Assembly (NCBI RefSeq): GCF_020832325.1
Contig: NZ_JAFIEU010000011.1
Coordinates: forward strand, 1-64,000
Direction of reading: 5' to 3'
Source: Lunatimonas sp.
GTDB taxonomy: Bacteria > Bacteroidota > Bacteroidia > Cytophagales > Cyclobacteriaceae
DNA: 64,000 nucleotides
The position numbers were made by a program, and so were the translations under genes. Of the stretch, positions 13,129-56,056 are shown piece by piece (within the stretch, counting starts at the first letter, position 1; every line of letters starts with the position of its first letter). The notes beneath the pieces are model-generated. The model saw nothing but the letters and a program-made list of their open reading frames with translations. It did not search any database and had not been told where the DNA came from.

Positions 13129-13205
13129 ACAAACTAAATCGAGCCTGCTTACCGGACAGGCAGGCACCTAGCCGCACATAGAGCGATGCGCCGATGGCTA
13201 TCGGG

Positions 13206-13305
13206 GAAAACAATTATAGACACATGAAATCGAGCATGACGTAACCGTCACACACTGGGATGCCCCGATAGCTATCGGGGCAAACATGCGAGATTCCATC
13301 TGACC
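13206..13305 (+). repeat. Structured ~100-bp leader element, copy 1
   Basis: Nearly identical to 55273-55373 (three substitutions and one A-run indel). It contains, in order: the leader motif CAATTATAGACACATG; a six-codon minigene at 13224-13244 (M-K-S-S-M-T-stop); a small hairpin TGACGTAACCGTCA; and a perfect palindrome GCCCCGATAGCTATCGGGGC (13262-13281). The arm CATGCGAGATTCCAT (13285-13299) is an imperfect inverse (12 of 15) of the ATGAAATCGAGCATG that opens the minigene. It lies 22 bp before the ATG of the next gene, whose own leader (13315-13330) repeats the motif. It may be a 5'-UTR regulatory element or a REP/MITE-like repeat. Confidence 0.8.
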
Positions 13306-13327
13306 ATTAAAAATCAATTATAGACAG

Positions 13328-14251
13328 ATGAAATTCTACATCGAGCTAATTTGGAAGCTGTTTTTTGCCTTGTCGATTTTTCCCTTTCTGCTTGCCGAAA
13401 AATTGCAAGAGAAGTACGAAGTACGTATCGACCCTCAGGTCGTTGATACGCTTTTTTCACAACCTATCGCCGTAGGAAAACTCGAAAACAAAGACATCGA
13501 CGAAGCAAGCGGCCTCGCCGCCTCCTGGCAACACCCAAACCTATTATACACCCACAACGACAGTGGTGGCGAACCTCATCTTTATTTGATGGACTATCAG
13601 GGAAAAAACCGAGGCAAAATAAAACTCCAGGGAGTAAAAAACAGGGATTGGGAAGATATAGCCATCGGTCCAGGCCCAACAGCAAATAAATCCTACGTCT
13701 ATGTGGGGGAAATCGGCGACAACCAAGGAAAATACCCACACATTAGCCTATTTCGGTTTCCAGAACCCACGGATATACAGAGCGAAATGGAGGTAACACC
13801 GGAAACCTTTCACCTGACTTACCCCGACGGCCCCAAGGATGCCGAAACCCTTATGATAGATCCGATCAGCGGGGATATCTTTATCTTGTCCAAACGAGAT
13901 TCGAGCAATACGCTATATACCTTACCTGCCGACAAACTGCGGCATGATGGACAGCCACTGGAATTGGAAAAAATACGCAAACTCCCCATCACCATGTCAG
14001 TAGCCGGGGACATATCCAAAGACGGCCGCCACATCGCGATAAAAAATTACTGGGTGATCTACTACTGGCCGAGGTTGGAAAACGAAAGCATCGCGCAAGC
14101 CCTCGCCAAAGATCCCGTATTACTTCCCTATAAACCGGAACCGCAAGGGGAAGCCATTGCATTCCTACCTGACGGTTCCGGCTATTTTACACTGAGTGAA
14201 AAACGGATGAAAATTGATCCGGTACTCTACCGTTACAACCGACTACCCTAG
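13328..14251 (+). CDS. Secreted beta-propeller-like protein of unknown function
   Basis: I do not recognise a named family. The 307-residue product begins with a hydrophobic signal (FALSIFPFLLA). It shows repeated propeller-like strands with Asp-rich turns: EASGLAASWQHPNLLYTHNDSGG, RDWEDIAIGPGP, YVGEIGDNQGKYP, DAETLMIDPISGDIFILSKRD and PQGEAIAFLPDGSGYFTLSE. Such spacing is seen in phytase-like/esterase-like secreted six-bladed propellers. The ATG at 13328 follows the CAATTATAGACAG leader motif and the structured repeat (13206-13305), which may regulate it. It converges with the SulP gene, the stops lying only 11 bp apart. Confidence 0.7.
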   Translation: MKFYIELIWKLFFALSIFPFLLAEKLQEKYEVRIDPQVVDTLFSQPIAVGKLENKDIDEASGLAASWQHPNLLYTHNDSGGEPHLYLMDYQGKNRGKIKLQGVKNRDWEDIAIGPGPTANKSYVYVGEIGDNQGKYPHISLFRFPEPTDIQSEMEVTPETFHLTYPDGPKDAETLMIDPISGDIFILSKRDSSNTLYTLPADKLRHDGQPLELEKIRKLPITMSVAGDISKDGRHIAIKNYWVIYYWPRLENESIAQALAKDPVLLPYKPEPQGEAIAFLPDGSGYFTLSEKRMKIDPVLYRYNRLP

Positions 14252-20197: not shown

Positions 20198-21112
20198 TTA
20201 ATGGTTGATTCGAAGGGAACCTGAGCGCATAGCTCCCCGAATGGTGGTGGCTGATCCGTTATCTATCTGCAGGGATTTTGCGTTTGACACATTGCCAACT
20301 CGCAGCGAACCACTACTTGCACTGAGGTCAAAATTGAAGGCCTGCAAATCCGACACCGTCCCGACTTCAATATTTCCGGAGGAGCCTTGAAATTGTGTCT
20401 CCGATCCTAGACCTACCTTGCTGATCTTTACATTACCGGAAGATACTGTTACATTGCCCAGTTCACCGACCTGATCCAACCGGACATTGCCCGAAGAAAT
20501 TTTCACGTGCACCAAGCCGGTAAGTGCCTTGCCTTTCAAGGATCCACTATTCGCACTGAGGCTGACATCCCCGGACACATCCGAGAGATCTGCCTCTCCA
20601 GACGTCAGGGTACAGGTCACGCCACCGTTTACTTGTTGTACCTCAATTTTGCCTGAATTCGCTTTTACAATTAGGCCACCCGAAATCTGCTGCGCTCGAA
20701 TTATGCCGGAATTTACGGATAATTTAGTCTCTGCTGAGCGAACATTCCTGATAGACAGCAAGCCGGAGGAGTTTTTACCGTTAATGCGGATATCTTCCGG
20801 GCCTTCGATGTGAATAAAACGCTTCTCTTGAGAAGGATTCGGTTTTGCAGGGCTTTTATAAGAGATTTTAAGCGTGTTGCCCAAGGTTACCATAAAGAAA
20901 TTCCGCGCACCGTCTTCGGCTTTGCCAAACAAAGCACTCAGACTAACATCCTCTTTACCTGGCACACCGGTGTACACAAGGTCCACTCCCCCGATATCCA
21001 TCTCCATAACTTCAATCCCAGTAAAGGTTTTTTCGATCAATTCCTGCCCGAAAACCGGCACACCCAAGGCAAAAATCGCCCCCATAACAAACATTACAAC
21101 TATCTTATTCAT
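20198..21112 (-). CDS. Exported DUF4097-type beta-helix protein
   Basis: A 304-residue protein with an N-terminal signal peptide (MNKIVVMFVMGAIFALGVPVFGQ). A long repetitive part follows, rich in SG(N/S/K)(I/V/L) turns: VNSGIIRAQQISGGL, SGKIEVQQVNGG, SGEADLSDVSGDV, SGSLKGKALTG, SGNVRLDQVG. This is the DUF4097/DUF2807 right-handed beta-solenoid pattern. Such proteins often end ECF-sigma operons in Bacteroidota, as here. The ATG at 21112 is preceded by the CAGTTATAGACAC leader motif shared with other genes in the window. Its role is unknown, with envelope stress sensing or adhesion as possibilities. Confidence 0.82.
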   Translation of the reverse strand: MNKIVVMFVMGAIFALGVPVFGQELIEKTFTGIEVMEMDIGGVDLVYTGVPGKEDVSLSALFGKAEDGARNFFMVTLGNTLKISYKSPAKPNPSQEKRFIHIEGPEDIRINGKNSSGLLSIRNVRSAETKLSVNSGIIRAQQISGGLIVKANSGKIEVQQVNGGVTCTLTSGEADLSDVSGDVSLSANSGSLKGKALTGLVHVKISSGNVRLDQVGELGNVTVSSGNVKISKVGLGSETQFQGSSGNIEVGTVSDLQAFNFDLSASSGSLRVGNVSNAKSLQIDNGSATTIRGAMRSGSLRINH

Positions 21113-21181
21113 GTGTCTATAACTGTTTTTTAGCGGTCACCTACCTTGCTTATCTTTTGGACAAATACTTGTAACCTGAAG

Positions 21182-22207
21182 TTAAAACGTGATACCAAAT
21201 GCCATAGGTCTAACCTCTGGACCCAGGCCTGGGTGAAACAATTGGCTAAAATCGTAGGTAGTAAAAAATGTTACACTACGAAAACCTACTTCACCGCGAA
21301 TTCCCGCCCGGAAATTGTTCAGGTACGGCCCTGCTCCTTCTTTTATCTTTCTTCGGCCAGAGCCCTCCAGTTCCCGATAGACAAACTTACTCCTTCCGCC
21401 AAGCCGATAACCGGCATAGGGACCAATACCTACCCGAAGGCCCTCCCTACCCTTATCATACTTCTTGCCAAAATCGTATTTCAGCAGTGTCATGGCCGTT
21501 AGGTAAGACGCAGAGATTTTATTCTTAAATCCGTTCACATCGGGCCTCGGTAGAAAATCCACGCCAAATTCTGTAGCTCGCGGCTGAAATTGGGTATTGT
21601 TGAACTTAAAATTGTACCAGTGTACCCCAAGTCCAAAATCCAAATAAGCTCCTTGAGCGATTTTCTGACTAGCCATCCAATTTAGATTCACATTCCAGCT
21701 TCCCCAGCCCTTTACAGAATAAGGCGCTGAGGGCGATGGAATCGATCCTTCCTCAAAATACGTATTGATACCTAGGTCCGTGGTGAAATAGGTCCGAAAT
21801 GCAGGATCTTTGCGAACTTTGGGATCAGACTCAAACTTCACCTTGGTTTTTGAACCCGATTCATCTACAATCAGCCGGTAACGCCCTACCGTCACCTCCG
21901 TTTCACCGGGTCCTTCATACACCCTGACAATTTCCTTTTTGCCGTCTCGGTACTTAATTTCTACCACCGTCTGATCACCCTCGGTCTCGGGCGGCGTGAG
22001 CTCCAACTCCCGGATGATCTGATTCACATCCATCTGTTGTAGCCGCTCAAAGTCTTTTGGGTTATCGATGACAAACACCAGCTTACCAGACCGGCCAAAC
22101 TGAACAATGATACTATCACTCATCACTTTGTCCGTAGCCTCTCCCTGGAAAGCGAACAACTGCTGGTACAATACCATCAAAATAATCGCGATTAGATACT
22201 TTTTCAT
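21182..22207 (-). CDS. Outer-membrane beta-barrel-like protein of ECF operon
   Basis: A 341-residue secreted protein without a family name I can give. The start is placed at ATG 22207 (MKKYLIAIILMVLYQQLFAFQG), giving a signal peptide and following the leader CAATTATAAACAG; the frame is open further upstream without a signal. After a globular part (residues ~25-130) come amphipathic strands with aromatic ends typical of a small barrel: GWGSWNVNLNWMASQKIAQGAYLDFGLGVHWYNFKF, GLRVGIGPYAGYRLGGRSKFVY and GIRGEVGFRSVTFFTTYDFSQLF. The C-terminal GITF ends on an aromatic residue, as barrels do. It is the third gene of the sigma-factor operon. Confidence 0.72.
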   Translation of the reverse strand: MKKYLIAIILMVLYQQLFAFQGEATDKVMSDSIIVQFGRSGKLVFVIDNPKDFERLQQMDVNQIIRELELTPPETEGDQTVVEIKYRDGKKEIVRVYEGPGETEVTVGRYRLIVDESGSKTKVKFESDPKVRKDPAFRTYFTTDLGINTYFEEGSIPSPSAPYSVKGWGSWNVNLNWMASQKIAQGAYLDFGLGVHWYNFKFNNTQFQPRATEFGVDFLPRPDVNGFKNKISASYLTAMTLLKYDFGKKYDKGREGLRVGIGPYAGYRLGGRSKFVYRELEGSGRRKIKEGAGPYLNNFRAGIRGEVGFRSVTFFTTYDFSQLFHPGLGPEVRPMAFGITF

Positions 22208-22294
22208 CTGTTTATAATTGTTTTTAATCGATTCTATTGTGTCCCTTACCAATGGTCAGGATGTCGGCCTTTGGAGGACTCGATTTCATGGAAT

Positions 22295-55272: not shown

Positions 55273-55373
55273 GAAAAACAATTATAGACACATGAAATCG
55301 AGCATGACGTAGCCGTCACACATTGGAATGCCCCGATAGCTATCGGGGCAAACATGCGAGATTCCATCTGACC
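55273..55373 (+). repeat. Structured ~100-bp leader element, copy 2
   Basis: The second copy of the element at 13206-13305. It has the same leader motif (CAATTATAGACACATG), the minigene ATGAAATCGAGCATGACG followed by TAG (55292-55312), the TGACGTAGCCGTCA hairpin, the 20-base palindrome, and the arm CATGCGAGATTCCAT. It again lies before a gene in the same orientation, with 23 bp between its end and the ATG at 55397. The stop TAA of copy 1 is TAG here, so the minigene length is kept despite the change. Confidence 0.8.
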
Positions 55374-55396
55374 TTTGAAAAACAAAAAATAAACAC

Positions 55397-56056
55397 ATGA
55401 AAGAAAGTGCATTTATTCGGTTTAAAATAAAAATGGCCATTGCGTTGAGTGCGGTCCTTTTTTTGATCTTTATCAAAAGTATCATTGACAAACAGAACGT
55501 CGCTGAACTGGAAGAGGCATTTATATCTGTGTATGACGACAGGCTAGTCGTTCAAGAACACATTTTTTCTATTACGGAGATGGTTTTTCGGATGCGACTG
55601 CTTGTGTCTGAGTGTGCATCGATGGAAGAATACTTGGCTGTAAAAGATGAAGTGATCGACTACCATAACCGAATATTGTCTGTAATCGAAGACTTTGAAA
55701 CCACCAAATTGACTCCCAAAGAAGCTGAGTACTTGGCTGAATTCAAAGACCTGATTACCAATAAACTGGAAATCCAAACCTACTTTGACACCGACCAAAC
55801 TGCAAACCATGATTTCGAAGTCTCTGTGGACCGCTTCAACGCGGATTTTGAAAGGGTCTTGACCGACCTGAGAGAGCTCTCAAACATCCAACTGGAAGAG
55901 GGTGCTAAACTGACCGTTAGGTCTTATGAAATCAAAGCCCGATCAGATATTTGGTTAAATTTTGAGTACGCCGTGTTGTTTATCCTCCTGGTGCTGATCG
56001 TTATCCTGGCATTTACCTCGAAATCGATCAAGAAAAAAAGCAAAACTCATTCCTGA
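55397..56056 (+). CDS. Four-helix-bundle membrane sensor without output domain
   Basis: A 219-residue inner-membrane protein. Two transmembrane helices (MAIALSAVLFLIFIKSIID at the N-terminus and YAVLFILLVLIVILAFTSKSI near residue 200) flank a ~160-residue helical periplasmic part with heptad spacing. This resembles the 4HB_MCP ligand-binding domain of chemoreceptors and kinases. No HAMP, kinase, cyclase or MCP signalling domain follows; the protein ends in SIKKKSKTHS. It could be an accessory subunit for the kinase 270 bp upstream. The ATG lies behind the structured leader element. Its stop overlaps the symporter gene by 10 bp. Confidence 0.75.
   Translation: MKESAFIRFKIKMAIALSAVLFLIFIKSIIDKQNVAELEEAFISVYDDRLVVQEHIFSITEMVFRMRLLVSECASMEEYLAVKDEVIDYHNRILSVIEDFETTKLTPKEAEYLAEFKDLITNKLEIQTYFDTDQTANHDFEVSVDRFNADFERVLTDLRELSNIQLEEGAKLTVRSYEIKARSDIWLNFEYAVLFILLVLIVILAFTSKSIKKKSKTHS

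Follow-up and report, generated by a model that had tools for sequence, protein, structure and literature searches.

A family of small structured repeats at start codons in Lunatimonas and its relatives, best read as mobile

REP and REPIN sequences served by RAYT transposases, tagged with GTAG or CGTC, are small palindromic high-copy repeats presumably moved in trans; CGTC repeats are also known without a dedicated transposase and from Bacteroidetes (PMC3733652, in the parts available). According to the accessible parts of PMC10969869 and PMC3733652, MITEs such as Correia, RUP, ERIC and BrickBuilt are non-coding, mobile and gene-adjacent and may alter expression, and the Rickettsia palindromic elements, of ~150 bp, are palindromic mobile repeats that invade genes yet keep them usable. 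In the IS200/IS605 family, guide sequences recognise the target by base interactions, and hairpins are found at the ends (PMC6006769, consulted in part).

We analysed a window of 64,000 nucleotides from Lunatimonas sp. (Cyclobacteriaceae), the whole stretch of DNA under study, which harbours a repeat unit that shares these general traits. In contrast with the REP/REPIN-RAYT systems as described in the source, whose CGTC families were compared by description only, the unit is ~92 bp long, has two adjacent helices, forms head-to-tail arrays, lacks a GTAG foot and sits at start codons. Unlike MITEs, it has a GAA(A) target and carries start-codon context, and neither terminal inverted repeats of a parent IS nor variable target duplications were seen. 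The Rickettsia elements are described as lying in-frame within coding sequence, whereas the unit would split and rebuild the start codon. Its guide-target interaction is putative, no Y1 gene was seen inside any copy and its helices close the whole element, unlike those of IS200/IS605. The family behaves like a MITE or a REP, and fully has the features of neither. In the open-licence literature searched, seen in part and with supplements outside the search, we found no description of such an element, which is not a claim of its absence from print.

Two leader copies and their proposed minigene

A sequence-only reading of the window had proposed a duplicated, structured leader of about 100 bp with a conserved minigene. 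Both copies were confirmed, at 13206-13305 and 55273-55373 on the + strand, as were their differences (TAA/TAG, C/T, G/A and one A in the leading A-run). Each lies 22-23 bp before the ATG of an ORF in the same orientation (307 and 219 aa), each encodes MKSSMT and a stop whose third base differs, and both have the structural parts, namely a pair of inverse arms (GAAATCGAGCATG / CATGCGAGATTCC), a small hairpin and a palindrome of 20 bp. The element proper of copy 1 extends from the G of the upstream ATG (13226) to the AT of the gene's ATG (13329). The features are as follows, with the helices P1 and P2 and the hairpin H2 defined in the next section.

13136..13225, +: decayed older unit directly upstream of unit 1, AAATCGAGCCTGC...ATTATAGACACAT, with nested palindromes (sequence reading; missed by the profile at E 1e-4)
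13224..13244, +: MKSSMT-TAA frame, read as a displaced ATG running into the left end of the unit (sequence; empty sites at other loci)
13226..13329, +: intact unit 1, GAAAT...CAGAT, at a start codon, with P1, H2, nested palindrome hairpin and P2 (profile match 13226-13330, BLAST, fold)
13262..13281, +: nested palindrome GCCCCGATAGCTATCGGGGC in place of the ACTAT-type loop of simple units (sequence)
13297..13330, +: right part of unit 1, with the CATCTGACC...CAGATG helix (P2) and an A-rich loop, ending in the gene's ATG (sequence, covariation, fold)
13328..14251, +: gene behind unit 1, 307 aa, without a Pfam family at E≤0.001 (ORF, Pfam)
21110..21145, -: possible relic at a different start codon, right-end-like stretch GTGACCGCTAAAAAACAGTTATAGACACATG (sequence)
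22205..22240, -: possible relic at a different start codon, right-end-like stretch GATTAAAAACAATTATAAACAGATG (sequence)
55292..55312, +: MKSSMT-TAG frame, read as a displaced ATG running into the left end of the unit (sequence)
55294..55398, +: intact unit 2, GAAAT...CACAT, in which a C-C mismatch breaks P2 (CATCTG / CACATG) (BLAST, profile, fold)
55330..55349, +: nested palindrome GCCCCGATAGCTATCGGGGC in unit 2 (sequence, BLAST)
55397..56056, +: downstream gene, 219 aa, 4HB_MCP_1 sensory module at E 4.4e-9 (ORF, Pfam)

Copy 1 is preceded by CAATTATAGACACATG, which resembles the right end of the older, decayed unit. Unit-like right ends without the P1 part were also found at start codons in three fetched loci (L094, L102 and L108). 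These, like the two stretches on the minus strand of the window, are either units that have decayed or native initiation contexts to which the element is similar.

The window has two further features. Matches to two group II intron domains (RF01998 and RF02001, at 416-703 and 991-1076, both on the - strand) lie beside a tRNA-Ser gene, and point to an intron or its remnant near the edge of the window. A 113-bp direct repeat (1741-1853 and 2434-2546, 74% identical, 693 bp apart) lies within a 525-aa ORF.

The conservation of the minigene did not hold up beyond the window. In the genome of origin (5.34 Mb, hereafter G000; other G-numbers denote other genomes and L-numbers fetched loci), a stop at codon 7 was found in only 20 of the 48 units preceded by an ATG. 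The others are read for 12-39 codons: 31 in 15 cases, 28 in six and other lengths in seven, one of the latter being cut by a contig end. In distant subfamilies, other sequences follow ATG AAA. The series ATG AAA TCG AGC ATG ACG TAA/TAG arises because a displaced ATG reads into the left end of the unit; this ATG is either the gene's former start codon, now displaced, or the last part of the unit before it.

Copy number, anatomy and fold

Of the 73 BLAST matches that a 131-bp query gave in G000 at E≤10, 55 reach 56 bp or more and 18 are no longer than 45 bp, several of the latter being the palindrome on the opposite strand. The right-end pattern CAATTATAGACASATGAAA, with up to two mismatches, matched 125 times, and the reversed-pattern control not at all. 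A profile census of 83 stretches (318,193 bases of the 5.34 Mb), drawn from 100 of the 125 right-end matches, yielded at least 105 unit matches in at least 76 arrays. These are lower bounds, and the covariance model adds at least one more unit (C20:162118). The 76 listed arrays comprise 51 single, 21 double and four triple ones.

Units are ~92 bp long and often in head-to-tail tandem, those of the window reaching ~105 bp owing to the nested palindrome. Simple units, mostly 88-93 bp including the G of the next ATG, are ordered as GAAATCGAGCATG, the hairpin H2, ACACAC..GGGATGATTAT, CATGCGAGATTCC and ATSTGACCNNTRAAAAA.CAATTATARACASAT, with GAAAT and CASAT as their ends. The first block pairs with the fourth to form P1, in which the second base is a conserved mismatch. 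P2 is formed by ATSTG and CASAT, so that the start codon pairs with an upstream CAT, and the two helices adjoin at the CCAT segment. Longer units have extra palindromes at recurring places, namely GCCCCGATAGCTATCGGGGC in the loop, as in both window units, CCTGCC..GGCAGG in P1 and CCCGATAAACCGGGACAAGTT before TGACC.

The palindromes CCCCGATAGCTATCGGGG, CCTGCCTACCGGCAGGCAGG and CCCGATAAACCGGGACAAGTT are nested at recurring joints of the fold (13262-13281 in the window; many units in L011, L019, L212 and L220). From their positions, it is as if a second kind of element preferred hairpin junctions.

The proposal that the leader has a conserved fold was borne out by covariation of its helices among distant relatives. 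When copy 1 was folded as RNA (z -4.0), the arms, the hairpin and the palindrome were recovered, together with a second helix over the start codon, which is missing from the fold of copy 2 (z -3.4). The palindrome contributes to both values; z was -4.9 for the unit of L070 and only -1.1 to -1.9 for three simple units, which fold weakly better than shuffles. Folding energy is therefore less telling than covariation. Over 36 units from many genera, 91% of the cells pair, and the covariation score was 0.175 versus 0.074 after shuffling (0 of 500 shuffles) and 0.014-0.035 when the partners were slid by 1-3 columns. Two sets of more distant relatives scored 0.293 versus 0.102 and 0.325 versus 0.079 (0 of 500 in each case), with alignments that were fitted to the covariance model and thus lean towards its structure. 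The structure itself was drawn up manually, on the basis of the sequence and of compensatory changes in outliers, and then counted; an automatic RNAalifold run on a MAFFT alignment recovered P2 alone. As the selection pattern of the 36 units fixed CCAT and ATG, the never-varying end pairs of P2 carry no weight.

P2 swaps C-G, G-C and A-U pairs, with CATCCG/CGGATG in G077. In G000, its middle pair is Watson-Crick in 69 of the 79 right ends scored. Seven of the other ten have C-C and one a T-G wobble, and the second copy of the window is among the ten. Since this pair is broken there and in other right ends, it is not required for the gene. The pairing counts are compatible with RNA or single-stranded DNA alike.

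Insertion at start codons

The suggestion that the leader is mobile was substantiated by unit-free orthologues, which provide empty sites. We compared 28 gene starts behind units with their orthologues in two genomes of the same genus (G001 and G002); one locus had no recognisable left end, which left 27 loci and 49 orthologue rows. An empty site was accepted when, over the 20 bases leading up to the junction, 15 or more matched a unit-free orthologue; such sites could be aligned at eight of the 27 loci (C2:4202, C3:75780, C6:19611, C9:59464, C14:150359, C29:9237, C30:111337 and C45:160492). C6:19611 in G002 and C42:11496 in G001 also reached 15/20 and were excluded, as the match was a right-end-like stretch. 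At the remaining loci the flank was too diverged for judgement. In each of the eight, the junction is the gene's own start codon, AT|GAAA or TT|GAAA. For example, G000 reads ...aaatcaaataat|GAAATCGAGC...gacagat|GAAACTATCC, and the unit-free locus of G001 reads ...aaatcaaataat|GAAATTATCT. One empty-site orthologue starts with TTG; in G000 the TT is kept to the left of the unit and an ATG stands on its right, so that this ATG was brought by the element. By pattern, the unit is present in six of the 49 orthologue rows and absent from 43, at least three of which (L120, L129 and L154) look like diverged or decayed units.

Which of the flanking bases belong to the target is indicated by G409, a genome related at the phylum level only. 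The left end is GAAAC in ten of its 11 fetched loci, and the right side is GAAT or GAAC in six of the 11 (counted by eye). As the right side varies and the left end is nearly constant, the right GAA is the target's and the left GAAA the element's.

The association with start codons exceeds what non-genic ATGAAA sites would give. In a census biased by a right-end pattern that itself contained ATGAAA and by the use of simple ORFs as gene models, ORFs of 70 aa or more begin at the last ATG of the unit in 57 of the 76 listed G000 arrays; one of these (C8:19348) overlaps a longer opposite-strand ORF. In the element-free background, 28 ATGAAA sites lie at or just after a start, 51 between genes and 213 within genes. 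If only genic insertions were purged, ~35% would be expected at starts (28/79), versus the 75% observed (binomial 2.4e-12, Fisher 6e-7). This excess implies either extra targeting or better survival at starts. Among the 19 arrays that open no such ORF, six sit 7-55 bp before a same-strand gene and seven are followed by an opposite-strand gene. Two G000 arrays lie inside opposite-strand ORF models that we judged spurious.

Among 95 arrays from other Cyclobacteriaceae, in loci cut at 8 kb, 63 have an ORF of 70 aa or more starting at their right end and eight lack a right-end ATG; the left flank is AT in 66/73 and codon 2 is AAA in 78/82. In distant Bacteroidota, 14 of 19 fetched loci are at start codons (counted by eye). 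Degenerate RAYT genes of G035 have units inside their coding sequence (L189 1331-1849, - strand; L190 1220-1305, + strand). One site is common to both copies; the other, at AG|GAAAT, is uninterrupted in L190. The enzyme therefore does not need a start codon as such.

We considered and rejected the idea that the unit is cut out of the RNA like an intron. Such removal would restore AU|GAAA and with it an intact message, yet none of the 76 listed arrays was judged to be inside an intact same-strand gene and the right end of the unit supplies its own start context; we give this idea almost no credence.

Could the unit instead be a cis-regulatory RNA, in which translation is set by P2 pairing between the AUG and the CAU upstream of it, the RNA being a switch, thermosensor or ligand sensor whose copies spread by the regulation that they confer? 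The covariation of P2 through C-G, G-C and A-U, the abutting of P1 and P2 and the position at start codons are in keeping with it, as are the few gene types found behind a unit in more than one genus. From their protein starts, we take these types to be hemC-like (G000 and L282), aspartokinase-like (G000 and L069), phosphofructokinase-like (L065 and L261) and of an MKLIRFG type (G000 and L064). Nevertheless, most genes downstream of units are unrelated, 43 of the 49 same-genus rows are without a unit by pattern (with the reservation above for three of them), and the middle pair of P2 is not Watson-Crick in 10 of 79 right ends. The unit also belongs to no described riboswitch or other RNA family of Rfam: it had no match at the gathering threshold in the window or in 14 further loci, and a search up to E 5 around copy 1 gave two chance-level miRNA matches and nothing else. 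We hold this explanation to be rather unlikely as an account of the family, although units may regulate the gene downstream.

Genes that we presume to be hemC-like follow a unit both in G000 (C9:107646) and in Lunatibacter (L282), and two same-genus orthologues have none. This pattern would reflect repeated insertion at one start codon, or losses.

Range, mobilising enzyme and proposed mechanism

By BLAST, 16 of 59 relatives carry the unit, a count that includes the genome of origin; the genera among the matches listed are Algoriphagus, Cyclobacterium, Lunatimonas, Lunatibacter, Pleomorphovibrio, Belliella, Mongoliibacter and Aquiflexum. The covariance model, under strict filters that make the genome counts lower bounds, gave matches in 22 of the 241 genomes of the order, again with the genome of origin counted, and six of the 22 fall in five other families. 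In a phylum sample, it matched 12 of 296, own included, four of which belong to another family of the class and two are related at the phylum level only. Most genomes outside the family had no model match. The relatives found in this manner are mostly at start codons.

The genome-wide copies and the empty sites identify a mobile, dispersed non-coding element, as MITEs are. A mobilising enzyme was sought among Y1 and Y2 transposases. That the unit is a REP-type element moved by a RAYT or an IS200/IS605 Y1 transposase appears unlikely. It is small, palindromic and of high copy, with a guide-like complement of its junction, and Y1 genes occur in 7/7 unit-bearing genomes of the first sets and in 15/16 genomes of a further set at E≤0.01 (14 over the cut-off); by contrast, G113 has nine covariance-model matches and no Y1 match at E≤0.01, and G032 has no match to the G000 RAYT profile at E≤0.001. 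In G032, a unit and a Y1 gene interrupted by a stop codon lie ~1 kb apart (L170). However, among 30 Y1 loci scanned, unit matches were confined to L170, L189 and L190, the last two being the insertions inside degenerate RAYT genes, and 30 further loci gave a single weak match (L428, E 0.046). No RAYT gene flanked by unit copies was found in these 60 loci, the flanks of the three Y1/RAYT genes of G000 are free of units, and a RAYT profile search with further genomes revealed no association. The Bacteroidetes TnpAREP subclass 2.6 is flanked by atypical structures (PMC6006769, in the part consulted), but most RAYT-like genes that we read have other palindromes alongside.

The ends of the unit are GAAAT and CASAT, and no hairpin of 20-40 bp with GTAG or CGTC at its foot was found; the CGTC that many units contain lies within H2 and is not a terminal tag. 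No autonomous copy with a Y1 gene between the ends was found among 286 exact left ends in 1.7 Mb of fetched short loci, overlaps included. For 38 of these left ends, a strict pattern detected no right part within 200 bp; by eye, they are diverged, longer or truncated units or chance matches, with no visible cargo. The REP- or MITE-like repeat that the sequence-only reading had named as its alternative was nearer the mark than its minigene regulator, without a GTAG-tagged REP, a RAYT gene flanked by the unit or a parent IS being found.

IS91/ISCR elements insert next to GAAC and make tandem copies. A rolling-circle element of this kind with a Y2 transposase would account for the one-sided GAAA target, the tandem arrays and the hairpins at the ends. 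We consider it very improbable: PF04986 (Y2) was found in 5/15 unit-bearing genomes and 2/13 genomes without unit matches, which leaves ten unit-bearing genomes without a Y2 gene, and eight Y2 loci had no unit match. No right end common to the unit and a Y2-encoding element was found, the four Y2 downstream ends that we read being unlike the unit. The P1 arms are not at the two ends of the unit, and searches with the Y1 and Y2 profiles found no parent IS. In L347-L350, the IS91-like Y2 transposase genes lie directly behind a stretch that, on reading, we take to be a tyrosine-recombinase gene, and they share the downstream stretch ...GGCTAGATTGCGTTTAAAAC(T/C)CTTT(A/T)CGTTA.

The repeats are best read as a new family of mobile elements, small and structured, whose niche, the start codon, is unusual. 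We think it probable that the unit is a non-autonomous, structured mobile element of ~92 bp that invades start codons, its usual target being GAA(A) after AT, which would correspond to the start codon followed by Lys or Asn as codon 2. Insertion of GAAAT...CASAT would split the start codon, the old AT and the element's G making a useless upstream ATG, and the element's last AT and the target's G would rebuild a start codon behind the element's A-rich initiation region. Such insertions would spare the gene and thus persist and stack in tandem, and those inside genes would be purged. The element may move as folded single-stranded DNA or RNA, with a mobilising enzyme acting in trans. In each unit, an internal TTCCATSTG matches the complement of the junction CASAT|GAAA at every position but one, where the mismatch is conserved; it may serve as a guide, keeping the two ends together and recognising the target.

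The right end would work as a translation initiation region. Initiation in Bacteroidota proceeds without a Shine-Dalgarno sequence, with A favoured at -3, -6, -12 and -13 in Flavobacterium johnsoniae (PMC6847099, in the part available). The right part of the unit carries A at -6 and at -12, with an A-rich run upstream of these and a C at -3; it fits this mode of initiation except for that C. P2 would partly hide the start codon and on this model should lower translation, which counts against our preferred explanation.

More tentatively, and with the balance somewhat against it, the units of several distant Bacteroidota lineages might form a guide-bearing mobile class that reads the start-codon region by TTCCATSTG pairing, splits the start codon, supplies a partly folded start and is moved by a kind of enzyme not yet recognised.

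If mobility of this kind is correct, the niche of the element would be the initiation codon itself, and the selfish replacement of its hosts' translation starts would be a new solution to the problem of harmless insertion. In rich genomes it would have rewritten the 5' leaders of dozens of genes, some apparently housekeeping, such as those that we assume from their protein starts to be hemC-, pth- and aspartokinase-like. It would also mislead the annotation of start codons and predicted small proteins, the MKSSMT-type uORFs among them. The precise target and the covarying fold make the mobilising enzyme directly searchable.
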